NCBI RefSeq assembly: GCF_014203395.1
Contig: NZ_JACHIW010000002.1
Coordinates: 248,001 to 312,000, forward strand
Source of the DNA: Saccharopolyspora phatthalungensis
Lineage (GTDB): Bacteria > Actinomycetota > Actinomycetes > Mycobacteriales > Pseudonocardiaceae
Length of the DNA stretch: 64,000 nt
Direction: 5' to 3'
The position numbers and the translations under genes were made by a program. A model generated the notes under the pieces. The model was given only the letters and a program-made list of their open reading frames with translations. It searched no databases and was not told where the DNA came from. Below are positions 10,283 through 26,033 of this stretch, piece by piece. Every line of letters starts with the position of its first letter. The first letter of the stretch is position 1.

Positions 10283-10320
10283 GGCCCAGGACTCCCGAAG
10301 CTACGGCCAGGTGCAAAGTA
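10283..10320 (+). repeat. Left terminal inverted repeat of the Tn3-type element
   Basis: 38 bp beginning GGCCCAGGACTCCCGAAGCT, the exact reverse complement of 26014-26051. After a short mismatch a further run (TTGTAGCTGGTCA, 10326-10338) also matches in inverted orientation near the right end (25996-26008), so the paired ends extend to about 56 bp, as expected for transposase binding sites. Confidence 0.95.
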
Positions 10321-10335
10321 GATCGTTGTAGCTGG

Positions 10336-10635
10336 TCAGCTGACGTGCCATCCGCTGTTCCAGCCGGGGAACTTCTCGGTGAATACCGCGAATTCAAGGT
10401 TCAGGGTGTGGGCTGCCGGGGCGAACATGGCCGTGTAGTCCGGGTCGGGTGAGTACAACGTCCATCGGCGACCGCGGGCGTCGTTGACCAGGAGCAGTCC
10501 CCATTCCTCGGGCACATGACCGGCCAGCTCGACGAGCCGGTGAGGATTGGGCAGGTGAGTGTGGCGGATGCGGCCGTGTCCGGTGATGGTCATCGGGAAG
10601 GTCGGTTCGCCGCGTGGCCACCGCCAGCGCCTCAT
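10336..10635 (-). CDS. Hypothetical protein, transposon cargo
   Basis: About 99 residues, starting MRRWRWPRGEPTFPMTITGH and ending WNSGWHVS. It contains an acidic/aromatic C-terminal half (GLLLVNDARGRRWTLYSPD). No family is recognised. Its start overlaps the end of the upstream gene at 10644, so the two are probably co-transcribed and coupled. The 3' end reaches to 15 bases from the left inverted repeat. The start is uncertain: the frame is open to 10710. Confidence 0.55.
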   Translation of the reverse strand: MRRWRWPRGEPTFPMTITGHGRIRHTHLPNPHRLVELAGHVPEEWGLLLVNDARGRRWTLYSPDPDYTAMFAPAAHTLNLEFAVFTEKFPGWNSGWHVS

Positions 10636-10643: not shown

Positions 10644-11204
10644 TCACGGCTGCTGGTCCGCGGTGTGGCTGGAGATGGCGGCGGCGCCGGTGAGTGCGTC
10701 GTCGACCCACTGGATGAACTTCAGCGGTGAGCTGTCGAAGTGTTCGCGGACGCGGGCTTGGATGGCGCGCACGTCGTGGCCGGGCAGGAAGTCGCGGTCG
10801 GTGTTCTCGTCGCAGCCGCAGGCGCAGGGGCGGTAGAGGAACTCCTTTTCCTCGGGTAGTTCGCAGTAGCCGACCGGGTTCTGCGAACCGTTGACGACGG
10901 GGTCGGGTTTGCCGAGCCAGGCGTCACGCACCGGATGCCCGGAGGGCAGGGCGGTGCCCTCCAGAGCGATGCGGTCGCCTTGAGCTGTCACGCCGGTGAC
11001 CTCGCCGACGGCGCGGATGTGTCCTTCGCCGACGATGACGGCGAAACGCTGCCGGCTGGCCTTCTCGGCGTTCATCCGCCACACGCCTCGGCCCGCTTCC
11101 CATGCCTCTGTCTCTGTCATCCGGGGGAAGTACCCGATGAACGAGCGACCGAGGGGGTCGCCCTGCACAGTCTCGTAGTTACCGAGCTTCAACCGGATCG
11201 CCAC
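10644..11204 (-). CDS. Hypothetical protein with possible PUA/EVE-like N-domain
   Basis: 186 residues. The N-terminal half (EAWEAGRGVWRMNAEKASR, then IRAVGEVTGVTAQGDRIALEG) has the look of a PUA/EVE-type base-reading domain followed by a family-like NPVGYC stretch. This is a weak impression. The C-terminal half has a CACGC cluster and a well-ordered region FLPGHDVRAIQARVREHF, then FIQWVDD. GTG 11204 is preferred for its GGAG site; a TTG at 11216 is also possible. It is the first gene of a two-gene unit at the left end of the transposon. The function is unknown. If the domain guess is right, recognition of a modified cytosine would fit the neighbouring operon. Confidence 0.6.
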   Translation of the reverse strand: MAIRLKLGNYETVQGDPLGRSFIGYFPRMTETEAWEAGRGVWRMNAEKASRQRFAVIVGEGHIRAVGEVTGVTAQGDRIALEGTALPSGHPVRDAWLGKPDPVVNGSQNPVGYCELPEEKEFLYRPCACGCDENTDRDFLPGHDVRAIQARVREHFDSSPLKFIQWVDDALTGAAAISSHTADQQP

Positions 11205-11369
11205 AGCCCGCTCCAATCTTCCGTAACCGGTTCATGTCAGAACCAAGTGCATCACTGTCAACCGGAAATAAAAAGACGATGCACCGCGGGAACTAGGCCA
11301 GGTTCACGCTGATGGCGTAGCGACAGTGGCTACCGGTGCGTCCGTGATACCGGACGCACCGGGTCCTAT

Positions 11370-11466
11370 TTCTGATACTTGTGAGTATCAGAAGTAAACT
11401 ACCGGAATGGCTTCTGATATTGCCGCCGACAGCGATCATCGGGGACCGGGTTTTACTTCCGATATT
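11370..11466 (+). other. Putative internal resolution/recombination site
   Basis: Perfect inverted repeat TTCTGATACT (11370-11379) and AGTATCAGAA (11384-11393) around the 4-base spacer TGTG. Two further direct copies of the arm follow: TTCTGATATT (11412-11421) and TTCCGATATT (11457-11466). A palindromic core plus two direct accessory repeats beside a tyrosine recombinase gene is the layout of TnpI-type internal resolution sites in Tn4430-like Tn3 transposons. It may also serve as recombinase operator. The assignment rests on layout, not on a sequence match. Confidence 0.65.
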
Positions 11467-12435
11467 TCGGCCGTTGTTGACGGTGATGTGAGCGGCGGAA
11501 CCCGGCGCGGTCCTGGGGCGCGGGCGACCCTCGTGCCCGAGGCGTTCGCCGAGGTGTTCTCCGGGTATCAGGCGGCGGTGTCCCGGCCGGGTGGCCCGTT
11601 GGATGCCGATACCGTCCGGGCCTACTGCTCGCGGGTGCGGCAGTACCTGGCGTGGCTGGACACTGCCGATGTCGATGGTGATCCGCTGGCCGATGCGGAC
11701 GCACGCAACGGCGCGGTGCGCGACTACCGCACTTACCTTCTGACCGTGGTGAAGCGGAAGTTGTCGACGGTGAACGCGCACTTGACCGCGGTCGATGATC
11801 TCTACCGGCACCTGGGGCTGGGGCCGGCGGTGGTGAAACGCCAGGAGGTGCCCAAGGCCGCGCCGCGGGCGCTGCCCGACAGGGCTCGGACCCGGTGGCT
11901 ACGCGCGGCCCAGCGAGCCGACGCACGCGGGAAAGCGCTGGCCTACACCGGTTACTACGCCGGGCTGCGCGGCGGCGAGGCCGTCGCCCTCGACCTTGAC
12001 GACGTGCGGATCTCCGCTCGCAAGGGCGTGCTGATCGTCCGCTACGGCAAGAACGGCAAGTACCGGGAGGTGCCACTGCACCCGCAGCTGCGCACCGCCC
12101 TGGACGAATGGATCATCGAACGCGCCACCCACCCAGGTGCGAAGGACACCCCGGCGCTGTTTGTCAATCAGCGTGGCGGACGGCTGTCCACGCGCGGGGC
12201 CTACGACGTGCTGAAGGAGATCGCCAATGACGCGAATCTGGAGTTCGGCCGCGACGGCGACCTCACTCCGCACTCATTGCGGCACACCACGGGCACAAAC
12301 CTGGTTCGCGACGGCGAGGACATCGTGACCGTCGCCGAAATCCTGGGCCATTCCATCGAAACCGCCCGCCGCTACAGCCTTCCCACCGACGCCGACAAAC
12401 AGGCCGCGATCGAGCGCCTGGCCGTGGATGAATAG
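11407..12435 (+). CDS. Tyrosine recombinase, probable transposon resolvase (TnpI-like)
   Basis: 342 residues. An N-terminal core-binding domain (about 45-150; YCSRVRQYLAWLDTADVDG) is followed by the catalytic domain with all key residues visible: Arg in GYYAGLRGGEAVAL, Lys-type beta-hairpin YGKNGKYREVPL, HSLRHT, GHS, and the nucleophile Tyr in ARRYSLP. It sits at the left of a Tn3-type element that has no serine resolvase, next to a palindromic site, so its likely task is resolving transposition cointegrates. ATG 11407 overlaps two accessory repeats of that site; a later start is possible because the first 40 residues look unstructured. An integron- or phage-type role is the alternative. Confidence 0.88.
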   Translation: MASDIAADSDHRGPGFTSDISAVVDGDVSGGTRRGPGARATLVPEAFAEVFSGYQAAVSRPGGPLDADTVRAYCSRVRQYLAWLDTADVDGDPLADADARNGAVRDYRTYLLTVVKRKLSTVNAHLTAVDDLYRHLGLGPAVVKRQEVPKAAPRALPDRARTRWLRAAQRADARGKALAYTGYYAGLRGGEAVALDLDDVRISARKGVLIVRYGKNGKYREVPLHPQLRTALDEWIIERATHPGAKDTPALFVNQRGGRLSTRGAYDVLKEIANDANLEFGRDGDLTPHSLRHTTGTNLVRDGEDIVTVAEILGHSIETARRYSLPTDADKQAAIERLAVDE

Positions 12436-12516
12436 CCCCTGCGAGAGTGGTGGCCCGGAGCCGCCCATACCGGCTCCGGGCCGTAGGTGAGTACATCACG
12501 ACGCGCTGACGTTTTT

Positions 12517-12574
12517 CAGCGTGAATAGGACGGTGCCCCCAGAAAACTCTGAGGGCACCGTCCTATTCACGCTG
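12517..12574. terminator. Strong bidirectional terminator
   Basis: Perfect 22-bp stem (12517-12538 with 12553-12574) around a 14-nt loop. It sits between the recombinase gene (plus) and the DUF397 gene (minus), which converge here. It shields the two transcription units from each other. Confidence 0.85.
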
Positions 12575-12575
12575 G

Positions 12576-12794
12576 TCAGTGGTAGTCGAGTCGTCCGGAT
12601 TTCGCGGCCGTGATCAGTGCGGCGAATGCGGTTGCAGAGAAGGCGAGGATGGGTGATGCGGCACCGAGTTTGGTGTCGCGGACCCCGATTGTTCCTGGGA
12701 CTGAGCCGATTTCGACGCAGTTGTTCTCGCCTTGGCTACGGGTGGGCTTGCGCCAGTTGGTGGCGTGCGCCAGAGCGGTATGGGCGCTCTGCAT
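12576..12794 (-). CDS. DUF397 protein, partner of Scr1-type regulator
   Basis: 72 residues with the DUF397 pattern: NWRKPTRSQGENNCVEIG, then IGVRDTK, and the FAALITAAKSGRL end. DUF397 proteins occur in actinobacteria almost always beside an XRE/DUF5753 regulator and act with it in developmental or antibiotic regulation or as toxin-antitoxin-like pairs. Here the start is 4 bp after the stop of such a regulator. Gene order (regulator first) fits one operon. Confidence 0.92.
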   Translation of the reverse strand: MQSAHTALAHATNWRKPTRSQGENNCVEIGSVPGTIGVRDTKLGAASPILAFSATAFAALITAAKSGRLDYH

Positions 12795-12798
12795 GGCT

Positions 12799-13671
12799 TT
12801 ACAGCTCCTTCATGATCGTGCGGATGTAGGTTGGCGCCTCCTCCGGTTTGCACGCCTGGACCTGCAAGAGCCGGAGTGCTTTGCGGTAGCGCACCAATTC
12901 CTCGGGCTGCTCATAGTAGAGACTGCGGATCAGCGTCTCAGTGTGCACCAGCCCGGGGTCTTCGAGCTCAGGCGCGAAGGTCAGGAAGGTGAAAGATCCC
13001 TCGATACCGGTGTGCGCGCCGGCATCAACCGGCAGCACCTGAACGGTGATGTTGGGGCGCCCCATCAGTGCCAGCAGGGCTTCGAGCTGCTCACGGGTGA
13101 CCTCGGGTCCGCCGACGGGGAGCCGCAGCGCGTTCTCGTGGATCACCCGCCATACGGCGGGTGGCTGCTGCCTGTCCAGGACGGTGCTCTGGCGGGCCTG
13201 GCGGAGTCTGACCCGGCGGGCGACTTCATCATCGGGCAGCTGTGGGTCGTCGGCACGCACGACCGCCTCGGCGTAGGTCGGTGTCTGGAATAGTCCCGGT
13301 ACGACACGGGCGTCCCAGCCTTCGATCTGCTCGGCCTCGGATTCCAGGCCGAGGAAGAGTTTGAAGAACTCAGGGAGCTCGTCGGCTTCGAAGTCGAAGT
13401 TAACCCACCAGTCGCGGCCCTTCTTGGCCCGTACCAAGAGATCTTGGAAGAACTCGGTGCGCTCGGGGACGCCGTAGAGTTCCAGCAGTTTGTCGAGCTG
13501 CAGTGGTGTGGGCAGCCGTCTGCCGACCTCGACGTGCTCGATGGTCTTGACCGTGCCCCGGATGGCCGTCGCCGCGTCACCGCGGGAGAGGTCCTTCTTC
13601 TCGCGCAGGCGCCGGAGGGTGAAGAAGAACCAGCGTTTGAGCGCGGTGGGGTTGCTGGGGCCGGTGCTCAT
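12799..13671 (-). CDS. Scr1-type XRE regulator with DUF5753 domain
   Basis: 290 residues. An N-terminal helix-turn-helix (about 10-70; LRREKKDLSRGDAATAIRGTVKTIEHVE region) is followed by DUF5753 (about 95-285; WDARVVPGLFQTPTYAEAV and NALRLPVGGPEVTREQLEAL), which is thought to sense ligands or bind the DUF397 partner. ATG 13671 begins the protein-like part. It forms an operon with the downstream DUF397 gene and is the only dedicated regulator in the transposon, so control of the divergent nine-gene operon is plausible but not shown. Confidence 0.92.
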   Translation of the reverse strand: MSTGPSNPTALKRWFFFTLRRLREKKDLSRGDAATAIRGTVKTIEHVEVGRRLPTPLQLDKLLELYGVPERTEFFQDLLVRAKKGRDWWVNFDFEADELPEFFKLFLGLESEAEQIEGWDARVVPGLFQTPTYAEAVVRADDPQLPDDEVARRVRLRQARQSTVLDRQQPPAVWRVIHENALRLPVGGPEVTREQLEALLALMGRPNITVQVLPVDAGAHTGIEGSFTFLTFAPELEDPGLVHTETLIRSLYYEQPEELVRYRKALRLLQVQACKPEEAPTYIRTIMKEL

Positions 13672-13891
13672 CGAGCGCGCGTCCTTCTTCCGAGGTAACG
13701 GACCAGCCGATCGGAGCATTTCGTGTGGAATCCCAATTCTGTACCGTCCCACAAGTGTGCTTGGTCACCAGGTGACTACCCACGTTACAAGGTGATCGGC
13801 ACGCAGTGAAGGAGCCTCTGGGGAAGCGCGCTCCAGCCGGATTTCCCAGCTGGGTGGCTGTCGAGTGCCTTCCCTGGAGGTCGCGAACGGT

Positions 13892-13928
13892 GGTGGATCG
13901 GCCATGACCCCGACCTGGCCGATCCACC
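13892..13928 (+). promoter_or_regulatory. Stem-loop upstream of the cargo operon
   Basis: Perfect 12-bp arms GGTGGATCGGCC (13892-13903) and 13917-13928 around a 13-nt loop, with no T-run. It lies in the space between the Scr1-type regulator (minus) and the genes to the right (plus). It could be a terminator, an attenuator or an operator for the regulator. Which one cannot be told from sequence. Confidence 0.45.
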
Positions 13929-13951
13929 ACCCACCGGCGGGAGGGCCAGGG

Positions 13952-14164
13952 ATGACTACAGCTGTCAGCGACCAGTGCGCCGAGGTATGGACTGATCACC
14001 TCGGGATCGTGCACGAACGCGAGCCCGGTGAGCGGCACCGCACGCTGTGCGGTCTCAACGCTGGCGAGTCGAACCCGGTCGTTGGTGCACGGGTGTGCCG
14101 CTGCTGCGTGGCGGAGCACTTCGCGATCGAATCCGCTGGTGATGCTGTGCCCGCCGTGGCCTGA
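13952..14164 (+). CDS. Small cysteine-containing protein
   Basis: 70 residues starting MTTAVSDQCAEVWTDHLGIV. It has four cysteines in CGLNAG and RVCRCC that could bind zinc, with HREREPGERHRTLCG-like spacing typical of small actinobacterial zinc proteins of unknown role. ATG 13952 has a GGGAGG site 7 bases upstream and is preferred over the Met at 13904 inside the stem-loop. It precedes the nine-gene operon by 110 bp. Confidence 0.55.
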   Translation: MTTAVSDQCAEVWTDHLGIVHEREPGERHRTLCGLNAGESNPVVGARVCRCCVAEHFAIESAGDAVPAVA

Positions 14165-14274
14165 CTCAGGTTCTATTTGACAGGCCCTCAATCCGGACCA
14201 GCGCGTCCGCCATTCCTTTCCGTGCTGGCCCTGGTTATTGAACCGATCCGAACCAGACGACATCGAGGTATCCC

Positions 14275-15312
14275 ATGTCGACAGTGCTCATGACCGGCTC
14301 AACCGCCTCGCGTAGCACCATCCACGATGCGTGTGGCGGTGCGAATCCGATGCGGCGGGTGGTTGTTACCGGTGCGGCTGGGTTTATCGGTGGGCATCTC
14401 GTGGAACGGTTGGTCAGGGCCGGGGTGCTGGTGATCGGCGTTGACCGGCGAGATCCGGACCGCGATGTCGCCGCCGCGGCGAACGTGGAGGCTGTCCGGG
14501 CGGCGCCGAACTTTGTGTTCGTTCCGGCTGACCTGGCCCACTGCGCGGTGGAATCGCTGGTGTTGGACGCCGACGTGGTGTTTCACCTGGCCGGTGTGCC
14601 GGGGGTTCGGCCTTCGTGGGGGCCGGGGTTCGCGGAGTACGCCGAAAGCAACATCGTGGCGACTCAGCGTCTGATGGAAGCGGCTGTGCGGTTGAAGGTC
14701 CCGCGAGTGGTGCTGGCGTCCTCATCGAGCGTGTACGGCCGGACCGGTGGTGGCGCGTCACCGGAGACCGCTGCGACGGCGCCGCTGTCGCCGTACGGGG
14801 TGAGCAAGCTGGCCGCCGAAACGCTGTGCCTGGCATACGCGCGGCGAAGCGACTCGGCCACAAGAGTGTCGGCGCTGCGCTACTTCACCGTGTACGGGCC
14901 GCGCCAGCGTCCGGACATGCTGATCGGACGGGTGCTCTCGGCGGCACTGGGTGGTCCGCCCGTGCGGTTGTTCGGTGCGGGCGATCAGCGACGCGACTTC
15001 ACCTTCGTCGACGATGCGGTCGCGGCCACGCTCACGGCCGCCACCGTGCCAGCGTCGGGTGTGTTCAACATCGGCGGCGGCCGGGCGGCCAGCGTCGCCG
15101 ATGTTGTGCGCATCGCCGAAGACATCACCGGTACCCGCATCCCCACCCGCCCCGTCGCCGCCCGGGACGGTGATGTGCCCGCCACCTTGGCCGACCCGAC
15201 CCGCGCGCGTGAGGAGCTGGGGTGGCAACCGCGGGTGAATCTGGTCAAGGGCATGACCCGGCACTGGCAGTGGCTCAACGCCGAAGTCGGCCACGACGAA
15301 GCCGCTTCCTGA
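14275..15312 (+). CDS. NAD-dependent sugar-nucleotide epimerase/dehydratase
   Basis: 345 residues of the extended-SDR family. The NAD-binding VVVTGAAGFIGGHLVERL begins at about residue 29. AGVPGVRPS is followed by the active-site Ser region ASSSSVYG and YGVSK (catalytic Tyr and Lys). ALRYFTVYGPRQRPDM and FNIGGG are the substrate-domain boxes of UDP-sugar 4-epimerases/decarboxylases. Its likely role is making or reshaping a nucleotide sugar for the product of this operon. ATG 14275 has GAGG at a fair distance; Met 14350 begins right at the fold and is the alternative. First gene of the operon, 16 bp before the next. Confidence 0.88.
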   Translation: MSTVLMTGSTASRSTIHDACGGANPMRRVVVTGAAGFIGGHLVERLVRAGVLVIGVDRRDPDRDVAAAANVEAVRAAPNFVFVPADLAHCAVESLVLDADVVFHLAGVPGVRPSWGPGFAEYAESNIVATQRLMEAAVRLKVPRVVLASSSSVYGRTGGGASPETAATAPLSPYGVSKLAAETLCLAYARRSDSATRVSALRYFTVYGPRQRPDMLIGRVLSAALGGPPVRLFGAGDQRRDFTFVDDAVAATLTAATVPASGVFNIGGGRAASVADVVRIAEDITGTRIPTRPVAARDGDVPATLADPTRAREELGWQPRVNLVKGMTRHWQWLNAEVGHDEAAS

Positions 15313-15328
15313 CGAAAGGACCTGATCA

Positions 15329-16315
15329 GTGCACACCCTGTCAGCAGGATCGGCCACCGAACTGTTCACCACGGCCTGCCGTTGCCTTCGTACGCACGGT
15401 GCCGCGGTGGCGCCCCGTGGATTGGCCACCACTGAACTCCTTGGCACGCACCTGCACTTGACGCGGCCGCGGTACCGGTTCGTCGACGCGGTACCGGCAC
15501 GGGTGATCAACGCCGCGTTCGCGGCCGCCGAGGCGGTCTGGATCCTGTCCGGATCCGACGAGCCGTGGATCTTCGACTTCAACAAGCGGCTGCGCCGTTT
15601 CACCGACCACGGCCGCTTGCAGGGAGCCTACGGGCCACGGCTACGGAACTGGCAGGGACGGGATCAGCTGGACGCGGTGCGGCGGCTGTTGGAAGACGAC
15701 GACCAGTCGCGGCAGGCGGTGATCCAGCTGTTCAACCCCGCTCGTGATTTCTCCGGCCACCGCGATGTTCCGTGCACCTTGGGCTATCGCTTCTACATCC
15801 GGTCCGGGCGGCTGGTCATGTTCACCACGATGCGCAGCCAGGACACGTGGCTGGGCTTTCCCTACGACATCTTCACCACGACCTTGCTGCAGGAACTGCT
15901 GGCTGGGTGGCTGGGCGTCGGCCTCGGCGAGTATCACCACCTGGTCGACTCGCTGCACCTCTATGACGACCACCTGAGCCTGGCCGAAACACTCGACACC
16001 CAGCCCGTCGACGGCCAGGCCGAGACCGGGGCGCAGCTGGATCTGCGGGTGCCGTGGGAGGACTTCGACGCGCTGCTGGCCCAGATCACCGCAGGGGAAC
16101 TCGTCGGCCACGCCGGTTGGGATGACTTCGCGATCGTGCTGGCCAGTTACCGCCGCTGGAAGGCCGGTGATCGCGACAATGCCCGAGCTCTGCTGACCAG
16201 CTCGGATCAGCTGCTGTCGGCCGCGCTGCGCCGGTGGTACGAGCTGCTGGAATCCGAGCCGCACCGGATCGCGCCCGCACCGGCCACGCCCAACGCTCGC
16301 GGGAGGCTGGCATGA
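15329..16315 (+). CDS. Thymidylate-synthase-family (d)CMP hydroxymethylase
   Basis: 328 residues of the thymidylate synthase fold. By its spacing it lines up with E. coli ThyA with a constant offset of 3: nucleophile Cys149 (DVPCTLGY), phosphate-site Arg169 and Asp172 (MRSQDTWLG), and His210/Tyr212 (DSLHLYDDH). At the base-recognition position, Asn177 in ThyA, it has Asp180 (GFPYDIF). Asp here is what T4 dCMP hydroxymethylase has and is the change that switches the fold from uracil to cytosine. It should therefore add a one-carbon unit from methylene-tetrahydrofolate to C5 of CMP or dCMP, giving the 5-hydroxymethyl derivative. GTG 15329 has a GAAAGGA site. Its stop overlaps the next start (ATGA). 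Confidence 0.88.
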   Translation: MHTLSAGSATELFTTACRCLRTHGAAVAPRGLATTELLGTHLHLTRPRYRFVDAVPARVINAAFAAAEAVWILSGSDEPWIFDFNKRLRRFTDHGRLQGAYGPRLRNWQGRDQLDAVRRLLEDDDQSRQAVIQLFNPARDFSGHRDVPCTLGYRFYIRSGRLVMFTTMRSQDTWLGFPYDIFTTTLLQELLAGWLGVGLGEYHHLVDSLHLYDDHLSLAETLDTQPVDGQAETGAQLDLRVPWEDFDALLAQITAGELVGHAGWDDFAIVLASYRRWKAGDRDNARALLTSSDQLLSAALRRWYELLESEPHRIAPAPATPNARGRLA

Positions 16316-18030
16316 GCCGATCGGTTCCGAACGTGGTGCTGGGGCTGTGCGCGTTCACCCATGACTCGGCCGCCGCGCTGCTGATCGACGGGCGCCTGGT
16401 GGGCTTTGTCGAGGAAGAACGGCTTTCCGGCGTCAAACATGACCGCTCGTTTCCCCGGCACGCGGTGCAGTGGCTGCTGGGCCAGCAGGGCTTGAGCGTC
16501 GCCGACGTCGACGAGGTCGCCTACAACTTCGTGCCCGCCCGCTACCTGCCCGCCGCGATCCCGGCCCCGGCGCAACTGGTCGGCGACCCGCACCGGGCGA
16601 TGGCGCGGTCTCGGTCCTTCGTCAAGGTCGCCGCCCGCACCCACGCCCGGCTGGCCGAGCTGCGCGCATGGTTCCCCCGCGCCCGGGTGCGGGCGATTCC
16701 GCATCACCATGCCCACGGGCTGTACGCCTTTGCCGCATCCGGTGCCGACGACGCGGCCGTACTCATCGTCGACAGCCTCGGCGAGACCGAAACCACCACG
16801 ATCGCCTCCGCACACCACTCCGGGAACGGTCGGCTGGCCTACCGGCAGCGTGAGGCAATCACCGACCCCGCCTCGCTGGGATACGTCTACGGCGCGATGA
16901 CCGAGCACCTGGGATGGCGCCGCGGTGATGAGGAAGGCACCGTCATGGCCCTGGCCGCGCTGGGCGACCCGACCCGATTCCGGCAGCTGCTCGCCGACGC
17001 GGTGCGCATGACCAGACGCGGATTCACCGTCGACCCGCGGCTGATCGCGCTGCGAGTGCTCTCCGGGCGCGCGCAGCGGCTGACTCCCGAATTCATCGCC
17101 CGCACCTGTCCACCTCGGCACAGTGACGAGCCGGTGACCGACGTGCACCAGGATCTGGCCGCGGCTCTGCAGGAGCGCACGGAGCAGATCATGCTGCACC
17201 TGGCCCGGCGGGCACGGCAGGCCACCGGAGCCTCCACGCTGTGCGTCGGCGGAGGTGTTGCGATGAACTGCTTGAGCATCGGCCGAATCGCCGACGCCGG
17301 AATCTTCGAGGCCGTGACCGTCCCGCCCGCACCCGGTGATTCCGGCACCGCCACCGGCGCCGCGCTGGCTTCCTGGCACCACCACAGCGGGCACATAGCC
17401 ACCGGAGCCGGAAACGCCTGCTACCTCGGCCCAGCCTTCGGCGGCCTCACCCTGGCCACCACGCCTCGGCCCGGCGCCCGCGCCCGACGCCTGCAGCACC
17501 GAGCCCGCTACCTCGCCGAACAACTCGCCGCCGGCCTCATCATCGGCGTCTTCACCGGAGCACTGGAAGCCGGTCCCCGGGCACTGGGCCACCGGTCCAT
17601 CCTGGCCTCACCGCTGGATTCGTCGGTCGTCGACCGGCTCAATGCCACCGTGAAATACCGCGAGCCGTTCCGGCCGTTCGCGCCGGTCATCCTCGCCGAC
17701 AAGGCATCCGACTACGTCCGCCTCGGCGCACCCTCGCCGTTCATGTCACGAGCGCACCCCGTCACCGACCTGGCGCTGGAGCGGATCCCCAGCATCGTGC
17801 ATGCCAACGGCACCGCTCGCGCGCAAACCGTCGATGCGGCCCAGAACCAGTTCCTGACCGAGGTGCTCACCGAGTTCGCCGCGCTCACCGGCACCCCGGT
17901 GCTGATCAACACCTCGCTGAACGTCAAAGGCAAACCCATCTGCGGCACCCCGGACATGGCGCTGGACTGCTTGGCTGAATCCGGAATCGATGCGCTGCTC
18001 CTGGAGGACTGGTGGGTGGTGCGCCAGTGA
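16312..18030 (+). CDS. O-carbamoyltransferase (NodU/CmcH/TobZ family)
   Basis: 572 residues, full family length. The N-terminal Kae1-like domain makes carbamoyl-adenylate from carbamoyl phosphate and ATP: LGLCAFTHDSAAALLIDG, the metal-binding HHHAHGLYAF, and CVGGGVAMNC. The C-terminal YrdC-like transfer domain has EAGPRALGHRSILASP and REPFRPFAPVIL. Known members carbamoylate hydroxyls of nodulation factors, cephalosporins, tobramycin and novobiocin. Directly after a cytosine hydroxymethylase, the 5-hydroxymethyl group (or a sugar hydroxyl) is the natural acceptor; this is inference. The start overlaps the previous stop by ATGA, and its own stop overlaps the next GTG. Confidence 0.92.
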   Translation: MSRSVPNVVLGLCAFTHDSAAALLIDGRLVGFVEEERLSGVKHDRSFPRHAVQWLLGQQGLSVADVDEVAYNFVPARYLPAAIPAPAQLVGDPHRAMARSRSFVKVAARTHARLAELRAWFPRARVRAIPHHHAHGLYAFAASGADDAAVLIVDSLGETETTTIASAHHSGNGRLAYRQREAITDPASLGYVYGAMTEHLGWRRGDEEGTVMALAALGDPTRFRQLLADAVRMTRRGFTVDPRLIALRVLSGRAQRLTPEFIARTCPPRHSDEPVTDVHQDLAAALQERTEQIMLHLARRARQATGASTLCVGGGVAMNCLSIGRIADAGIFEAVTVPPAPGDSGTATGAALASWHHHSGHIATGAGNACYLGPAFGGLTLATTPRPGARARRLQHRARYLAEQLAAGLIIGVFTGALEAGPRALGHRSILASPLDSSVVDRLNATVKYREPFRPFAPVILADKASDYVRLGAPSPFMSRAHPVTDLALERIPSIVHANGTARAQTVDAAQNQFLTEVLTEFAALTGTPVLINTSLNVKGKPICGTPDMALDCLAESGIDALLLEDWWVVRQ

Positions 18031-19067
18031 AGATCGGCTACAGCTTCTGGGGATTCCTCGGTCCTGGGATCACTGACACCCCAGACGGCGGGCGCAGCCA
18101 CCGCCGCACCCTCATCGACGGACTGCGCGAAGCCGGGCACGACATCGTGTTCCTGCAAACCAACCGCGACCTCACCGAAGCCGGTACCGACCTGCGGCAG
18201 ACCTACCGCTGGGACACCGGGTTCCCCGAGATCGACGCACTGTTTCTGGAGTGGCGCTGGCCCCTCGCGGGCCGCAACACCACCCCATGCGGCGCACCCG
18301 GGCACACCTGCGACCTGCACCGGCAACAGCAGCTGGTCGAGCACTACACGCAGCACAGTCTGCCGACCCTGCTCTGGGACAAAGACCAGCAACTCCCCAC
18401 CGCCGATCCACTGCGCAGTCATCCTGCGGTGCGGGTGTGCGAGCCAGCGCTGTACCCGAAGCCAGGGGCGCACAGCCTGCTGTTCCCGGTCGCCGACGAC
18501 ACGCTGGACACGGTTGACCCCTCCGAACTCGCGCGAGGCCGGAGGTCATGGCCAGTGGTGTATATCGGTAACCAGTACGGCCGTGACGAGGCGTTCGACA
18601 CCTACTTCGCGCCAGCCGCCGCCGAGCACCACCACCAGGTCGCCGGGAAATGGACCGACACCGACCGGTGGCCGCACGTGCATTTCATCGGCCGGATCCC
18701 GTTCACCGCGGTGGACCCGCTGTATCGCGACGCGCTGGCGACGGTGCTGCTGTTGCCGCCGCGCTACGCCGCCAGCGGCCACATGACCCAGCGGCTGTGT
18801 GAAGCCGTCCTCGCCGGATGCCTGCCGCTAGCCCCGACCACCATCCGCGGGATCGAGCACTACGTGCCCGCCGACCTGCACATCACCAGCGGCCAGCACG
18901 CCACCGAGCTGATCAGCGAACTGCGCCTCACCGGGACAGCCCAGCACGCCGACCTCCTGGCCGAGTGCCTTCACCACCTGAAGATCTTCCGGCTACACCA
19001 CCAGCTGGACATGATCGACACACTGCTGAACCAGCCCCACCCGACACCACCGGGCCTGCCACGGTAA
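18027..19067 (+). CDS. Glycosyltransferase-like protein (GT-B/CgeB-type)
   Basis: 346 residues. The N-terminal part opens like a GT-B domain (KIGYSFWGFLGPGITDTPDGG). The C-terminal half has the donor-domain pattern VHFIGRIPF, then HMTQRLCEAVLAGCLPLAPT, as in CgeB/Glycos_transf_1-like proteins. It is likely to transfer a sugar, perhaps one prepared by the first gene of the operon. GTG 18027 overlaps the preceding TGA. Acceptor and donor are unknown, and I have no close family member in mind; assignment to a glycosyltransferase is moderately sure. Confidence 0.65.
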   Translation: MKIGYSFWGFLGPGITDTPDGGRSHRRTLIDGLREAGHDIVFLQTNRDLTEAGTDLRQTYRWDTGFPEIDALFLEWRWPLAGRNTTPCGAPGHTCDLHRQQQLVEHYTQHSLPTLLWDKDQQLPTADPLRSHPAVRVCEPALYPKPGAHSLLFPVADDTLDTVDPSELARGRRSWPVVYIGNQYGRDEAFDTYFAPAAAEHHHQVAGKWTDTDRWPHVHFIGRIPFTAVDPLYRDALATVLLLPPRYAASGHMTQRLCEAVLAGCLPLAPTTIRGIEHYVPADLHITSGQHATELISELRLTGTAQHADLLAECLHHLKIFRLHHQLDMIDTLLNQPHPTPPGLPR

Positions 19068-19106
19068 ACAACGGGCCCAGAGCCTGACCAACCGGAACGG
19101 AGGACC

Positions 19107-19637
19107 ATGCGCAAGATCATGATCTGCGGGTGCGGCGGCAGCGGCAAATCCGCACTGGCGCGCCAGCTCAGCCAGCGACTCGGGCTGCCGGTGACGCACC
19201 TGGACACGGTGTTCTACGACGACGACTGGAAACCCCTGGACCACGAGGCTTTCTCCGACAGGCAACGCACGCTGGTAGCCCGGCCAGAGTGGATTATCGA
19301 TGGCAACTACGCCAGCACCATGCCGATCCGGCTTACCGCCGCTGACACCGTGATCTTCCTCGATCTCCCCGCGCTGACATGTCTATGGGGAATCCTGCAG
19401 CGCCGCCTCCAGCACCGCGGCGACGACGAACTCTCCCGTCACCTGCGTGGCCGAATCACCTGGGGATTCATCCGCTACATCCTCGGCTACAGGCGCACGA
19501 TGCGCCCGAAGGTCGAAACCCTGATCGCCGAGCACACCAGCGGCACGGCAGTCACCCTGCGCTCCCGCCGCGAGATGCGCCGGTTCCTGCGCTCGGTGCC
19601 CAGCAACGGCAGCCACCCGGACTCGGCGCGCACATGA
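19107..19637 (+). CDS. P-loop kinase, FlaR/adenylate-kinase-like
   Basis: 176 residues with a Walker A loop at the N-terminus (MICGCGGSGKSALARQLS), HLDTVFYDDDWKPL after strand two, IIDGNYASTMPIR and a DTVIFLDLP strand. This is the pattern of the small 'topology modulation' (FlaR) kinases related to adenylate and shikimate kinases. In this operon it could phosphorylate a modified CMP or another small molecule. There is a strong GGAGGACC site, and the end overlaps the next ATG. Confidence 0.82.
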   Translation: MRKIMICGCGGSGKSALARQLSQRLGLPVTHLDTVFYDDDWKPLDHEAFSDRQRTLVARPEWIIDGNYASTMPIRLTAADTVIFLDLPALTCLWGILQRRLQHRGDDELSRHLRGRITWGFIRYILGYRRTMRPKVETLIAEHTSGTAVTLRSRREMRRFLRSVPSNGSHPDSART

Positions 19638-20428
19638 GCACTAACCCGTTCCTGAATGGACAGCAGGAGCTGTACGGGACCAGCCAGCGGCTGGCCAGGC
19701 GCACCGGCGCGCTGCATGGCGCCAAAATCCAGGGCCGACCGGTGCCCGAAGTCATCAGCGAACTCCCCGACCCCGAACGAGCCCGTGCAACCGTGATCGA
19801 CGTCGGCTGCGGCCGCGGTTCCACCACCGCGCACTTGGCCCAGCGGTGGAACCCCGTGCTTCTGGCCGGCATCGACCTCTCCCACGCGTTGCTGGTCGAC
19901 GCCCGACGACGCCTTCCGCAGCAGGCCCGTGCGCGGTTCTTACGTGCTGACTTTCACGCACTGCCCCTGGCCGAAGCCAGCGTGGACGTTGTGGTGGCGG
20001 CGTTCTGCCTCTACCACGCACCCCAGCCTCAACGGGTCATCGTCGAGTTCGCCCGCTGCCTGCGCCCTGGTGGCCAGGCAGTGCTGGTCACCAAGTCCGC
20101 CGACAGCTACCGCGAACTCGACGAGCTCGTCACCGCAGCAGGACTCGACCCACACGCCACGCGCCGGCCCAGCCTGTACGAGACGTTCCACAGCGGCAAC
20201 GCCGAGCACATCACCACACACCACCTCGCCGTGCTCAAGACGGTCAACCACCAGCATGTGTTCCGCTTCCGCGATGCCGCGCACACGGCGCGCTATTTGA
20301 CCACCACTCCGAAATACGACCTCGGCGCCGACGAACAAGCCATCACTACCGCACTTCGTCCCCTTGTCGGCCAGTCCAGGGTGACCGCGACCTCGACAGT
20401 TACTTACGTCCTGGCGGAGCGGCGATGA
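19634..20428 (+). CDS. SAM-dependent methyltransferase (class I)
   Basis: 264 residues. Rossmann-type methyltransferase with motif I VIDVGCGRGSTTAHLA (about 55-70), the acidic motif II GIDLSHALL, and LRPGGQAVLVTKS as motif III/post-III. The C-terminal half is of the kind found in UbiE/Methyltransf_11 small-molecule enzymes. Probably methylates an intermediate of the operon product. The ATG overlaps the kinase stop and its stop overlaps the next start (ATGA). Confidence 0.85.
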   Translation: MSTNPFLNGQQELYGTSQRLARRTGALHGAKIQGRPVPEVISELPDPERARATVIDVGCGRGSTTAHLAQRWNPVLLAGIDLSHALLVDARRRLPQQARARFLRADFHALPLAEASVDVVVAAFCLYHAPQPQRVIVEFARCLRPGGQAVLVTKSADSYRELDELVTAAGLDPHATRRPSLYETFHSGNAEHITTHHLAVLKTVNHQHVFRFRDAAHTARYLTTTPKYDLGADEQAITTALRPLVGQSRVTATSTVTYVLAERR

Positions 20429-21195
20429 CCCCCCGGCGATTCATCAAGACCTACCGCGACGCCCGCGCCGCGGACACCGCACGCGAGCACTACCGGTGGC
20501 TGACCGGCCTCAACGCCGGGATCGAGTACCCGGAAATGATCGGCGGGACCGACATGACCCTGGGCTTCGCCCACGTGACAGGCCGGGCCGCCGAACTCGA
20601 CGATCTCCCTGCTGTCGCCGCCGTACTGGGGCGTCTGCACCACGCCGCCCGCCGGGCAGGAATAGACCGGGCGCAGGTCAACTCCCGCTACATCACCCCT
20701 GGTGGGCTGTGGCTAGCCTCGTTCGCCGGACCCCGCCGCACACGGCTGCACCATCAACGCGATCTGATCCCGGACTCGCCACTGGATCATCAGGACATCG
20801 ACGCATGGCTGGACCACGCCACCCTGTTCCCTGCTGCGATCTACAAAGACTCCAACCCCCGCAACTTCCTCATCACCCCCGACCGCGGTCCCGTCCTGGT
20901 CGACTTCGACTCCCTGACGCTGGCCCCCGTCGCCTATGACCTGGCCAAACTCCTGGTCACCACCGGAATGACCTACGGCCGGCTCCCCCGAAGCGCCGCC
21001 GATGACGCGGTGACCGCCTACACCCACGAACTCGGCGAACCCTGCTCCCACACCGAAATCGCCGTCTGGGCGGAGTTTCACGACCTCCTGACACGCCGCT
21101 ACCTCGGCCGCCACGGCTACCGCCATCCGTGGCCGGCCGTACGCCCCTGGCCCGCGCACGACGTGACCAGCACGCCTACTAAACGGAGCCGCTGA
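20425..21195 (+). CDS. APH-fold small-molecule kinase
   Basis: 256 residues with the aminoglycoside phosphotransferase/choline kinase C-lobe: the catalytic loop YKDSNPRNFLI and metal site VLVDFDSLTLAPVAYDLAKLLV. The usual HxD is YKD here, so the His is replaced while the catalytic Asp and Asn remain. The N-lobe is short. It likely phosphorylates a hydroxyl of a pathway intermediate or the product. Coupled to both neighbours by overlapping start and stop codons. Confidence 0.8.
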   Translation: MTPRRFIKTYRDARAADTAREHYRWLTGLNAGIEYPEMIGGTDMTLGFAHVTGRAAELDDLPAVAAVLGRLHHAARRAGIDRAQVNSRYITPGGLWLASFAGPRRTRLHHQRDLIPDSPLDHQDIDAWLDHATLFPAAIYKDSNPRNFLITPDRGPVLVDFDSLTLAPVAYDLAKLLVTTGMTYGRLPRSAADDAVTAYTHELGEPCSHTEIAVWAEFHDLLTRRYLGRHGYRHPWPAVRPWPAHDVTSTPTKRSR

Positions 21196-21851
21196 TGCCC
21201 GTCACCACCGAACTCGTCCTCGCACGCCACGGTGAAGCCGCCTGCAACGTCGCCGGATTCGTAGGCGGCTCCCGCACCTGCACCGGGCTCACCGACCACG
21301 GCCGCGAGCAAGTCGCTCGCCTAGCCACCCGTCTCACGGGCGAACCCGCCTTCGACGCGCTCTACACCAGCCCCCGCCAGCGCACCCAGGACACCGCCGC
21401 CGCACTGGCCCACGCGCTGAACCTCACCATCCGCACCGACGACGAACTCCGGGGACTCGACCACGGCGCGGCCGACGGCTGCGACTGGACCAGTATCAAA
21501 ACCCGCTTCGGTGGCCGCCCCCAGCGCTATCCGCACCAGCCGATCGCCGAAGACGCCGAAGCTTGGAACACCTATCTCGACCGCGCCAGCCGGATCCTGG
21601 CCAGCCTCATCCGCCGCCATGAGGGCCAGCGCATCCTCATCGCCGCCCACGGCGAGACCATCGAAGCCAGCTTCGCATTCCTGCTCGGCCTCCCGCGCTC
21701 AGAGGCCGAACAACCCGGCATCGTCACCAGCCACGCGAGCCTGACCCGCTGGCAGCAACACCGCAACCGCTTCGGCCACACCGTGTGGATGCTGGCCGCC
21801 CACAACGACATTCAGCACCTCGCCGCTGCAGCGGAAGCCGCAACCGGATGA
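21195..21851 (+). CDS. Histidine phosphatase (PGM/GpmB-like)
   Basis: 218 residues of the RHG phosphatase superfamily: LARHGEAACNVAGFVGG with the phosphohistidine, YTSPRQRTQDTA with the second Arg, and AAHGETIEASFAFLLG with the second His. All catalytic residues are present. It should remove a phosphate from a small molecule, possibly one added by the flanking kinases. TGATG overlap at its start and ATGA at its end keep it in the translational chain. Confidence 0.88.
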   Translation: MPVTTELVLARHGEAACNVAGFVGGSRTCTGLTDHGREQVARLATRLTGEPAFDALYTSPRQRTQDTAAALAHALNLTIRTDDELRGLDHGAADGCDWTSIKTRFGGRPQRYPHQPIAEDAEAWNTYLDRASRILASLIRRHEGQRILIAAHGETIEASFAFLLGLPRSEAEQPGIVTSHASLTRWQQHRNRFGHTVWMLAAHNDIQHLAAAAEAATG

Positions 21852-22708
21852 ACGACCAGAACCTTGAGCGTCTGCGGGCCCTCGCACGCTCCGCCGGCTA
21901 CGACCCGGCCGACATCACCTCACCGCCGCTCACGCATGCCACCGGCACGGTGGTGCGGATGCGCAGCACCGAAACAAGCCTCATCGGCAAGATCCACCGA
22001 TCCCGCACGCTGCACCAACGCGAGGTGAGCGCCTACCGCGACTGGACCCCGCACCTCGCCGACGCCACACCCCGGCTCCTGGCCGTCGATACGGACCTGC
22101 CCGGGATCGTGATCACCGCAGTCCCTGGTCGGCCGCTGGACGAACTCGGCCTTCCCCAAGAAGCCGAACGCGCCGCATTCCGCCAAGCCGGGCAATTTCT
22201 CCGCCGCTTGCACCAGGTCCCCGTCACAGGCCACGTCCCAGAGATCACGTCCTACCTTGCTGAACGCGCGGAACATTGGATCACCCGCACCGCTGCACAT
22301 CTCACCCGCCACGACACCCAACTCGTCCGGCACCATATGCGGCGACTCATGAAGATCACGACAGCACGCGTGACCGCATGCCATCTTGATTTCCAGCCCC
22401 GCAACCTGCTCTGGCATCCCGGCGAAGGACTACTCCGGCTCATCGACTTCGAACACGCACGCATCGACCTCGCGGCACGAGACCTCGTCCGCATGAACAC
22501 CCGCCACTTCACCCACCGCCCCGATCTGAAGGCCGCCTTCTTCGCCGGATATGGGCCACTCAACGAATCCGATGCCGCAGTACTGGCCCACTGCACCGTC
22601 CTCGACGGCCTCACCACACTTGCGTACGGACACCGAAACGCTGACCCCGCCTTCATTCACCACGGCCGCGCCTTGCTCAGCACACTGCACCAGCCAACAC
22701 CCAGATGA
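21848..22708 (+). CDS. APH-fold small-molecule kinase
   Basis: 286 residues of the aminoglycoside phosphotransferase family. The N-lobe has a Lys-containing strand (TSLIGKIHRSRTLHQREVSAY). The C-lobe has the catalytic loop CHLDFQPRNLLWHP and metal site LRLIDFEHARIDLAARDLVRM, all intact. It is the last gene of the operon and its start overlaps the phosphatase stop. Self-resistance by phosphorylating the product, or a biosynthetic step, are the two likely roles. It is not a close paralogue of the other kinase by eye. Confidence 0.85.
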   Translation: MNDQNLERLRALARSAGYDPADITSPPLTHATGTVVRMRSTETSLIGKIHRSRTLHQREVSAYRDWTPHLADATPRLLAVDTDLPGIVITAVPGRPLDELGLPQEAERAAFRQAGQFLRRLHQVPVTGHVPEITSYLAERAEHWITRTAAHLTRHDTQLVRHHMRRLMKITTARVTACHLDFQPRNLLWHPGEGLLRLIDFEHARIDLAARDLVRMNTRHFTHRPDLKAAFFAGYGPLNESDAAVLAHCTVLDGLTTLAYGHRNADPAFIHHGRALLSTLHQPTPR

Positions 22709-22838
22709 GTTCCTCACCCCGCGTGTTGGCCTGTGTGCGGCGGGACCAGCGCCGCGATCAGAGCTGGCTGATCGGATCCCGGCCGAGACCGGTTACCGGG
22801 TCTGACCACGTTTACGCCACGCTGACCAGCAGATACCG

Positions 22839-22876
22839 GAGATCGCGGCTGGCGGGAGCTTCGGGAGAACTGGGCC
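22839..22876 (+). repeat. Third, degenerate copy of the Tn3-type end inside the element
   Basis: 38 bases that match the right terminal repeat at 28 positions, including AGCTTCGGGAG and CTGGGCC, and are in the same orientation as the right end. The outer edge faces the transposase gene, whose stop codon is 3 bases away. The segment before it (GACCAGC region, about 22824-22833) also resembles the extended right end. It makes 10283-22876 a potential cargo unit with its own pair of inverted ends. Confidence 0.7.
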
Positions 22877-22878
22877 GG

Positions 22879-25806
22879 CTACGCGGCCAGGTCGAGATCC
22901 AGGTGGGTGTCCATATCCAGCAGAAACCGGCCGTAGGGATTGACGTTGGTCCAGAACAGCGCGTTGAGCGCCCGCCGATCGTCGTCGGTCAGTTTCGTCG
23001 CCCACTCCGGATCACCCAGAACCCGTTGCAGCAGCAGGGTATTGATGTAGACCAAGCAGCTCTGCAGCAAATGCAGTGCCAGCATCGACACTTCCACATG
23101 CTCCTGATCGGCACCGGTGAGCTTGCCGTCTTTGCCGTAGAAGACGACCTCGTTGGCGGAGTTCCAGTTCTCCACCACCTGCAGCCCGCCGTGGATCTCC
23201 CGGCGGAGATCCTCCGAGGTCAAGAATTCGCAGGCGAAGATCGTCCGCACGACCCGTCCGAGTTCCTCCATCGCCAAGTAGGTGGGGTTCTTCGGGCCGC
23301 CGCCTTTGGTGAACCGGCGCAGCATCTGCTCGGCCTCGGCCGTCCCGAGCCGCAGCGCGGTCGCGTACTTGACCATCTGGTCGTACTGCTGGCCGATCAG
23401 CTCCCAGTTGATCGGCCGGTTCACCATCACCTTGCCCAGCTCCGGCCAGGTCGACGCCGGCGCGTCCGGGCTGTACAGCTTGATCGCGCCGATGTTCTTC
23501 AACCGCGGCAACAAGCGGAACCCCAGCAGCTCGGTGAACGCGAACCCGACCACGCTCGCGCCGTGCGTGTCGGTGTAGTTCGCCTCGATCTCAGCGTCCG
23601 TGCAGTGCCGCAGCAGGCCCTCGATCATCGACGCGACCTCCGACGAGGAGGTGTCCTTGATCTGAGAGTAGATGCAGACCCGGCCCTTCTCGACGTGCCA
23701 GTAGATCATGATCCCGCCCGCCCCGTACCGGGCATGGAACCGCGTCATCAGGTTCGAGTCCCACGACCCGAACCGCTTCGAGTCACTCGCGGTCGTGGTG
23801 GCCTTGCCCCACCACCGCGGATCCCGCGCGGCGAACGTCGCGTTGACCACGGTCACGATCGCACGGCGCAGGTTCTCCCGCGTGATGTGGCTGGCCCGCA
23901 CCCGCCGCAACGCGCCCTCGTCCTCGTCATGCTGCCCGGTGGACACCAGCGCGCGGATCCCCATGTTCGTGCCCAGCGCGAACAGGCACATCAACAGCCG
24001 GCGCCGCAACACATCCTTCGGCAAGGCTTCCCTGGTCGCGACCGACACGAACTCGGACGTGAAGTCGGTGAACAGGTCGGTGTTCTTCAGCATGTCCAGC
24101 AGGTCGATCGTGCCCCACCGCCGCGCCACCTCGGCCTTGAGCGCCGCAAGGTTCTGCGGCTCGGGCAGCTTCTCCAACGCCGGCACCGTGATCCACGGCT
24201 GCCCCTTCTTCGTAGTGATCTTCACCCCGCCCGTCGTCCCCTTGACCATCGCGGTGTTCAGCGTGTCCAAGGCAGCGCGGTGGCGACGCTTGAGGTCCTC
24301 GACGAATTCCTTCGCCTGCAGGGGTTTACCCAGCGCGGCGTAGTGCACATCGCGGTTCTCCTCGAAGTTCTGCGGCAGGTCTTCCTCCGGGTCGCGCCAC
24401 CGCCCGGCGCCGGCCACCCAGATCTCCCGGCGCCGCAGTGCTTCCCGCAACGCGATCAGCACGCACAGCTCGTAGGAGATGCGCTCGACCTGGCCGTTCT
24501 CGTCGGTGACCGCGTCCCGCCACGCCTTGGGCACCACACCCTCGATCGGCGGACGGTCATCCGGGCCGTACACCCTGACCTTGCTGTCCACCGCGGCGTA
24601 AGAGCCGAGCAGTTCGACGGCATCCATCACCGGCCGGTAGGTGGTGTTGTTGCACTGAAAGTCCAGCGCGGCGAGCACCGGTGCCAGCATCCGCCGGTAA
24701 TGGTGGGTGTAGGAGCCGCGCAGCTGGTAGCGAACCCGTTCCCGCACCACCCGGCTCCCGGCGAGCAGCTCCTTGACCAGCTTGCGCAGCGTCTTCTCCC
24801 CGCCCGGCACCACCGGCCACACCGCCGCACGCACCTGCTCGTCCGGGTGCTCCAGCACCGCGTTGACCATCTTGAGGAAGATGCCCTTCTTCCCCGGCAC
24901 CGAGCTCATCTCACCGAGCAGTTCCTTCTCCACCCGCCGCTCCGCGCGGGCGTTGATCTTGTGCACCAGATCCACCAGCAACCCGACCAGATCATCGGTG
25001 ATCTCAGCCTGGCGAACCCAGCACAACGCCGCCAGCAGCGTGTACCGCACCGGCTCGGAGCACTCGGCGAAGTCCGACGGGAACATCCGCGCCGCCCGCG
25101 ACCGCCACGCCGCGATCAGCCGGTCCGACACCCCGGCGAACACCTCGCCCGGCAACCCCAGCCCACGCACCGTGCGCAGCTTCGCGATCTCGCCCAGCAG
25201 TGTCTCCAGCCCGAGCGGCCCGGGATCGGCCTTCACCTCGGCCAGGCGGCCCTCGGACTCCAGCAGCGACTGCATCGCCGCGCAGGGCGCCGACCCCAGC
25301 CGGTCCATGATCAGCGCGGCGAACGCTGTCTCGTGCTGGCGCAGCGCCGAGCCGATCACCCGCTCAATCTGGCCCTCGCTGGGTGGCTCGACGCTCTCGC
25401 TGCGGCACCGCTGCCGCAGCGCCACCTCCAGCCGGTCCCGGTTCTGTTCCACCGGACACTGCTCGGTCGCCAGCCACTGCACCCACCGCGCCCCGTCGTC
25501 CTCGGTCGCCGGGCGGAACCCCAGCGCCTCCCGGATCTGACCGCGGTGATACTTCGCCGAGCGGTTCTCGAAGGAGTACTTGCCGAACTCGGCCGGATCG
25601 ACCTTCACCAAATCTGCTACGAACTCCACCGCCGCCGCCGGCACCTGCTCGCCGTAACGCGGGAACTCGGCCTCGATCTCGAAGTACTTCAGCACCAGCG
25701 CGAACCCCAGCCGCGTAGCGCCGGTCTTATTGCCCAGCAGCCGCCAGTCCTCCTCGACCAGCGTCCACGCCACGATCAGCTCATCGGGATCCCAATCCTG
25801 CTTCAC
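22879..25806 (-). CDS. tnpA: Tn3-family transposase TnpA
   Basis: About 975 residues, the usual length for Tn3 transposases, uninterrupted. The N-terminal DUF4158 DNA-binding domain starts [20 protein letters not shown]. The RNase-H-like catalytic domain has Asp in [14 protein letters not shown], Asp in [16 protein letters not shown], and Glu in the [15 protein letters not shown] region. It ends [20 protein letters not shown]. It cuts and joins the 38-bp ends of this element and probably those of the related small element at 49242. GTG 25806 starts the family pattern; the frame is open to a GTG at 25869. It reads away from the right end, unlike the textbook arrangement where the gene ends at the repeat. 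Confidence 0.95.
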
Positions 25807-25898
25807 CGCGCGGACGGTAGCACCCACGACACCATCGAGTGACCAACCCTCTACCGTGCGGTAACGCACCCATTGTGATCACCAAGAACGAGCCCTAA

Positions 25899-26033
25899 AT
25901 GTCCACAGTAGACACTGCGGTGCCCGCATCCTGCGCAGACGACAAAGCCGCCAAGCCCGGACCGGAATCTACCTACGACGACCGCGCCGAGCTCGTGACC
26001 AGCTACAACACCCTACTTTGCACCTGGCCGTAG
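25899..26033 (+). CDS. Short open frame running into the right inverted repeat
   Basis: 44 residues, MSTVDTAVPASCADDKAAK onward, ending CTWP with a TAG inside the right 38-bp repeat. It is divergent from tnpA. No family is recognised and the ribosome site is poor. It may be the stump of a gene truncated when the end was formed, or chance. Confidence 0.25.
   Translation: MSTVDTAVPASCADDKAAKPGPESTYDDRAELVTSYNTLLCTWP

Follow-up and report, generated by a model that had tools for sequence, protein, structure and literature searches.

What is made by the nine-gene operon that a transposon carries in the genome of Saccharopolyspora phatthalungensis? The operon extends from position 14350 (or 14275) to 22708 of the window, by which we mean the whole stretch of 64,000 nucleotides analyzed here (positions 248,001 to 312,000 of contig NZ_JACHIW010000002.1), and a sequence-only reading had proposed that it directs a pathway to a 5-hydroxymethyl- or 5-carbamoyloxymethyl-cytosine nucleoside. 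We consider it rather probable that its product is a small 5-hydroxymethyl-cytosine nucleotide or nucleoside that carries a sugar. The evidence lies in the active-site residues of a thymidylate synthase (TS) homologue, in the kinship of a glycosyltransferase (GT) with the DNA beta-glucosyltransferase (BGT) of phage T4, and in the recurrent pairing of these two enzymes. The nine open frames, all on the + strand, are as follows.

14350..15312, +: NAD-dependent epimerase (in-frame ATG also upstream at 14275)
15329..16315, +: predicted TS-superfamily hydroxymethylase of cytidine or deoxycytidine monophosphate (CMP or dCMP), with Cys149, Glu68, Asp180 (cytosine) and Arg128 plus Ser170 (deoxyribose pattern)
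16312..18030, +: O-carbamoyltransferase (CT) of the NodU/TobZ/GdmN family
18027..19067, +: GT-B glycosyltransferase, the T4 BGT relative
19107..19637, +: small P-loop protein, putative nucleotide kinase (AAA_18; NCBIfam 'DNA topology modulation protein' below cut-off)
19634..20428, +: S-adenosylmethionine (SAM) methyltransferase (Methyltransf_11; present in 36 of 42 loci)
20425..21195, +: APH-family small-molecule kinase 1
21195..21851, +: histidine phosphatase (PspA-like, alpha-ribazole phosphatase-like)
21848..22708, +: APH-family small-molecule kinase 2

Pfam and NCBIfam models support eight of the nine proteins (epimerase, Thymidylat_synt, Carbam_trans_N/C, AAA_18, Methyltransf_11, APH, His_Phos_1 and APH), and the fourth protein gave only a sub-threshold match to Glyco_trans_1_2. 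The successive junctions, recomputed from the likely starts, measure +16, -4, -4, +39, -4, -4, -1 and -4 bp, in agreement with the co-directional genes and tight junctions described from the sequence alone.

Conservation of the operon

Conservation was examined over 42 loci, namely 40 fetched neighborhoods, Saccharopolyspora elongata and the window, from 44 known carriers (G750 and G1004 were left out). All nine genes were found in 29 of these loci, eight in 4, seven in 7 and only three in 2 (L087 and L097), so that 40 of the 42 hold at least seven. The order of the genes is fixed, save for the epimerase gene, which opens the operon in one clade and closes it in another. Because the neighbors recur in other genera, where protein identity to the window is about 30-77% (S. 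elongata aside), and because the -4 bp overlaps of TS with CT and of CT with GT are seen again in other loci, the nine-gene set is beyond chance; the genes travel together as a conserved set, as the sequence-only reading had supposed, and not independently. The methyltransferase was not found in L075, L078, L086 and L102, nor were the phosphatase and the second kinase in L070 and L088-L093, among which L070 stops at a contig edge. As side observations, in one operon variant the genes for GT and the P-loop protein are separated by a radical SAM gene (L089, 13196-14029 in operon-oriented coordinates), and L067 and L068 have a second, weaker TS homologue (32-35% identity) approximately 2.6-2.8 kb upstream of the operon TS.

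The pathway is sporadically distributed. Of the 297 host-family genomes searched, 7 have strong TS matches (E 6.7e-114 or better), the window's own genome included, a count that leaves out 20 weaker matches (1e-22 to 1e-38), and a phylum-wide search gave 2 of 396 genomes at E <= 1e-50, again with its own included. In a second family, sampled around a carrier, 18 of 250 genomes have strong matches, and in a third family 19 of 249, so that comparisons among carriers and with deletion strains should allow the product to be found. Protein searches, each limited to 8000 candidates, returned at least 1223 homologues of TS and at least 1056 of GT, and the organism-named entries among the 120 listed of each are actinobacterial. 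No close plasmid copy was matched by megablast, and the tblastn matches of TS in plasmids and phages are all below 60%.

Substrate signature of the TS homologue

The closest solved relative of the window TS is the CMP hydroxymethylase MilA (E 1.9e-36). According to the MilA study, Lys133 and Ala176 favor CMP, Arg and Ser at these positions favor dCMP, and Asp186 goes with cytosine (PMC5175136). The window TS has Arg128, Ser170 and Asp180 at the equivalent positions, which is the dCMP-type pattern and not the Lys/Ala pair of MilA, and a deoxynucleotide is therefore the more likely substrate. The earlier assignment to the cytosine type is supported. In an alignment of 41 orthologues, from which a length filter removed L066, the positions of Cys149, Glu68, Asp180 and Arg128 are invariant in all 41, and position 170 is occupied by Ser in 28, by Gly in 12 and by Ala in 1. 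Judged from these residues, the clade of the window appears to be dCMP-type, and the pattern may have relaxed in the other. The window TS also has approximately 107 residues beyond the TS domain; the same study describes a C-terminal extension that replaces the TS tail in MilA (PMC5175136), and the two may be alike.

Relationship of GT to T4 BGT and its pairing with TS

In both profile similarity and GT-B fold, the operon GT is closest to T4 BGT, whose donor-site residues Arg195, Tyr261, Arg269 and Glu272 align to residues invariant in 30 sequences. All of the strongly TS-positive genomes in the two sampled families are also GT-positive (19/19 and 18/18). These samples hold 24 further GT-positive genomes (3 and 21), 20 of which were fetched, the four with fragmentary matches being left out. 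In L203-L216 a cytosine-type TS gene directly follows GT, in L218 and L219 it lies approximately 5 kb upstream, L217 has none and L221 holds a GT fragment. The remaining two, L220 and L222, are seemingly decayed nine-gene operons that keep GT fragments, kinases and phosphatase and gave no TS or CT match.

L203-L216, L218 and L219 constitute a second actinobacterial cluster, in which the GT family occurs with a MilA-like TS (Lys, Gly/Ala and Asp; 16 proteins) that is 45-53% identical to a segment of MilA, compared with 40% for the window TS. In many loci the neighboring genes encode NDK, an RNase T-like exonuclease and a conserved protein that has no Pfam match and resembles radical SAM enzymes by eye. 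The second cluster is perhaps a ribonucleotide counterpart of the operon, and the presence of a MilA-like TS in it hints that enzymes of this GT branch are able to use free nucleotides as acceptors, and not DNA alone.

The same pairing is found in viruses. A search of IMG/VR with the profile of the operon GT gave 6 loci, 4 of which have an adjacent TS gene, and a viral GT profile found 83 loci, of which 80 were kept (L108, L223-L301). A TS gene on the same strand lies in the fetched flank of 67 of these 80, within 2.5 kb in 54, and a relative of the epimerase gene accompanies 43; when the loci are grouped at 85% DNA identity, TS is present in 53 of 63 groups. As a rough base rate, a single TS query at 1e-5 matched 816 of 50,697 phage records, and the pairing count used a larger TS query set, including some viral TS from the same contigs. 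The viral TS near GT have Arg-Ser-Asp in 65 of 67 cases, with gaps in the other 2. This large family of viral BGT relatives offers candidates for new phage DNA sugars.

Sugar supply, tailoring enzymes and neighboring genes

The closest solved relatives of the epimerase are MoeE5 (6kv9) and 6zl6, both of which belong to UDP (uridine diphosphate)-hexuronate chemistry, and the protein is probably a UDP-hexose or UDP-hexuronate 4-epimerase. A gene for a UDP-glucose/GDP (guanosine diphosphate)-mannose dehydrogenase follows the operon in four host-family loci (L066-L069; one member was checked with Pfam), which fits a uronic acid sugar. CT has both Carbam_trans domains in one chain (PF02543 and PF16861), as expected of the NodU/TobZ family, and its nearest relatives are GdmN (E 1.8e-78) and NovN. 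APH kinase 1 has YKDxNPRN where an HGD loop is usual, with the Asp and Asn invariant in 18 sequences, and a profile search of the Protein Data Bank (PDB) with it gave no match; the same search with APH kinase 2 returned general APH entries.

The flanks of the operons were surveyed through 150 of 302 called proteins and compared with 143 of 528 called in control stretches. HAD phosphatases are the commonest neighbors (14 of the 150) and are absent among the control families listed, and HTH_31 regulators number 11 compared with 3 among the controls. A defence-island setting is not supported, as PADLOC at 1e-10 matched 32 families in the flanks and 46 in the controls, nearly all by a single protein. 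Among ten proteins searched against known anti-phage systems (PADLOC 2.0.0), only the methyltransferase matched (mad2 at 1.8e-17), and this match is generic because a control methyltransferase matches the same model.

Transposon setting and mobility

The operon sits within a Tn3-family element at window positions 10283-26051, the additional features of which are listed below.

10283..10338, no strand: left inverted repeat (TACAA duplication at 10278-10282)
11407..12435, +: tyrosine recombinase (Phage_integrase), possible resolvase, inside the element
12799..13752, -: XRE-DUF5753 regulator, divergent
22879..25869, -: Tn3-family transposase, open across 996 codons
25996..26051, no strand: right inverted repeat (TACAA duplication at 26052-26056)

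The inverted repeats match at 53 of 56 bases and, with the 5-bp duplication and the Tn3 transposase, place the element in the Tn3 family. It splits a frame that resembles gamma-carbonic anhydrase by eye and becomes continuous once the element and one TACAA are removed. A hairpin between recombinase and regulator (12517-12574; 27-nt arms, 96% complementary, 4-nt loop) is possibly a resolution site or a terminator. The regulator is probably not a fixed part of the operon: S. elongata has none beside its operon, and L066 has a 39% relative, divergent upstream. A promoter scan of 13600-14600 found none, with one terminator-like match against 0.6 expected, and scans with Rfam at the gathering threshold and for tRNAs gave no match. 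Elsewhere in the window, at 49242-51277, is a second element, which is shorter, has inverted repeats like these and is flanked on either side by GTCAC; at the DNA level, parts of it resemble the Tn3 transposase gene.

Carriage on a transposon, as the sequence-only reading had it, therefore holds for the window, where repeats, TACAA and transposase are all present, but not as a general trait. Relatives of the window transposase or recombinase were found in none of the 41 other fetched stretches (approximately 12.6-21 kb each) and in none of 40 control stretches, and the view of the operon as a general Tn3 passenger was rejected on this ground. Frequent hopping between families is likewise not supported, as a tree of TS, CT and GT from 40 loci (without the decayed L087 and L097) mostly keeps host families together, with 4 changes of family label where at least 2 are needed and shuffled labels give 17.7 on average. 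With no related transposase in the other fetched stretches and a tree that mostly follows host family, the pathway looks old to us, passed on mostly by inheritance or by movement inside families, and its carriage by Tn3 looks like a local event.

S. elongata is 95.2% identical to window positions 14181-22821 over 8.6 kb, with sharp, operon-bounded edges and different flanks. The rpoB surroundings of the two genomes are 93.2% and 96.2% identical in two overlapping stretches, and further DNA searches between them gave short matches only, the longest at 72-73%, with no orthologous core for comparison; a recent transfer is only suggested by these figures. In flanks other than those of the window and S. 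elongata, the 150 proteins include 4 Phage_integrase, 3 MobC and 2 DDE_Tnp_4, none of which is among the 25 families listed for the 143 control proteins (a list that reaches one-member families), and the enrichment of mobile genes near the operons is weak.

Discussion

In the pathway that we propose, the TS homologue would hydroxymethylate dCMP at C5, as its active-site residues strongly suggest, and the relatives of clade B may use CMP. The epimerase would supply a UDP-sugar, probably a hexuronate or a hexose, to judge from its closest relatives and the dehydrogenase gene beside four loci. GT would then put this sugar on the 5-hydroxymethyl group, for which homology and the pairing with a hydroxymethylase-type TS in three separate settings argue strongly. 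CT would carbamoylate, probably at a sugar hydroxyl, the methyltransferase, where present, would methylate the sugar or the base, and the P-loop protein, the two APH kinases and the phosphatase might move phosphates on and off. The product is most likely a sporadically held specialized metabolite, either an antibiotic or an anti-phage compound. The predicted substrates are available nucleotides, and each key step is directly testable.

Several points weigh against this proposal. To our knowledge, a product derived from dCMP would be unusual for a nucleoside antibiotic, and no conserved exporter or self-resistance gene was found in the flanks examined. The dCMP pattern is not uniform, as 13 of the 41 orthologues have Gly or Ala at position 170, and the full pathway is not constant, given the loci without phosphatase, second kinase or methyltransferase. 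GT4 enzymes lie only 2 Z units below BGT in the structural comparison, and T4 BGT works on DNA, so that the acceptor of the operon GT is only a prediction. In addition, the TS of the second cluster do not keep the ribose-binding Tyr of MilA, for which 14 have Asn and 2 have Gly or Ala, and the preference of these enzymes for CMP is not certain because of this replacement.

A more specific interpretation, which we put forward only tentatively, is that the machinery with which phages disguise their DNA, dCMP hydroxymethylase plus beta-glucosyltransferase, also serves actinobacteria as a pathway to a heavily decorated deoxycytidine nucleotide, which might be an anti-phage compound, diffusible or intracellular, that poisons the replication of incoming DNA, or might represent a new modification of self DNA.

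It is unlikely that the product is instead a 5-carbamoyloxymethyl-cytosine nucleoside, in which CT would act directly on the hydroxymethyl group and GT on another hydroxyl. A metagenomic CT neighboring TS is reported to carbamoylate 5-hydroxymethylcytosine (5hmC) in nucleotides and DNA (PMC8670742). The CT gene of the operon likewise starts -4 to +8 bp from the TS stop in 40 of 42 loci. However, CT and a BGT relative would then be competitors for one hydroxyl, and the CT is closest to GdmN and NovN, antibiotic-tailoring enzymes, with 27-32% identity at most in the 30 listed of 140 phage records. Because GT is a relative of T4 BGT, the sugar most likely sits on the hydroxymethyl group and the carbamoyl group probably elsewhere, for example, on the sugar itself; cytosine hydroxymethylation and glycosylation thus survive from the sequence-only reading, and its carbamoyloxymethyl variant has become the less likely one.

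Less likely still is a modification of the cell's own DNA, in which hydroxymethyl-dCMP would be phosphorylated by the P-loop protein and polymerized by the host, and 5hmC would be glycosylated in DNA and its sugar decorated by the remaining enzymes. The dCMP-type residues of the window TS, the DNA substrate of BGT and the presence of the P-loop gene in 40 of 42 operons would suit such a route, as would the viral GT homologues that adjoin TS, which in L108 and L109 also adjoin genes that look by eye like a DNA polymerase and a small P-loop kinase. Against it, the nine genes include no polymerase or enzyme that removes deoxycytidine triphosphate (dCTP), none of the 80 viral GT loci has a relative of CT, the P-loop protein, methyltransferase, APH or phosphatase at 1e-8, and the TS of the sister cluster is MilA-like and would yield a ribonucleotide, which does not serve as a precursor of DNA. 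That the TS homologue is a methylase or otherwise employed, and the operon yields an ordinary carbamoylated sugar metabolite, is very improbable: CT, epimerase, methyltransferase and APH are common in the tailoring of sugar-bearing antibiotics, but Asp180 and the catalytic residues are invariant, TS is steadily paired with a BGT-like enzyme, and its tail may resemble that of MilA.

With regard to the small glycosylated 5-hydroxymethyl-cytosine product that we favor, the parts of the operon are of known kinds and, within the reach of these searches, their combination is new. PubMed Central full text, which leaves most subscription papers and bioRxiv outside, yielded no description of the gene set, as the sequence-only reading had anticipated, or of a cellular BGT relative in such a pathway. 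A literature search by gene words found only capuramycin as the closest case, and a paper on xinaomycin offered nothing of relevance apart from the title of one reference. The capuramycin/A-503083 clusters make a nucleoside and, like the operon, have a CT, a putative 4-epimerase, a glycosyltransferase and an APH-type resistance kinase, but the product is uridine-derived and the available part of the account describes no TS-type hydroxymethylase (PMC6384614). The 5hmC carbamoyltransferase module found on phage contigs by MetaGPA resembles the operon in that TS adjoins CT. Its carbamoyltransferase is reported to have distinctive residues at TobZ W408, G421 and R423, whereas the operon CT is nearest to GdmN, NovN and TobZ, and the operon adds GT, kinases and phosphatase (PMC8670742).

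The mildiomycin and bacimethrin pathways (MilA, BcmA, MilB and MilC) share with the operon the hydroxymethylation of a cytosine nucleotide by a TS-superfamily enzyme in actinobacteria, but MilA has Lys133 and Ala176 where the window TS has Arg and Ser. The mildiomycin pathway is said likewise to link hydroxymethylcytosine to glucuronic acid, through MilC, but its sugar is on the base, whereas that of the operon is probably on the hydroxymethyl group. MilB is the N-glycosidase that releases the 5hmC base, and none of the nine proteins has a Pfam match of this kind; no search for it was made in the remainder of the genome. The T4 system of dCMP hydroxymethylase and BGT offers the same two kinds of enzyme, the same pairing and, for the window, the same predicted dCMP signature, but the operon is cellular, adds CT, methyltransferase, two APH kinases and phosphatase, and lacks a polymerase or dCTP-removing enzyme among its nine genes. 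If our proposal is true, the T4 BGT family would have a cellular use, possibly in small-molecule synthesis, and the hypermodification of phage DNA would be linked to the natural-product chemistry of actinobacteria.

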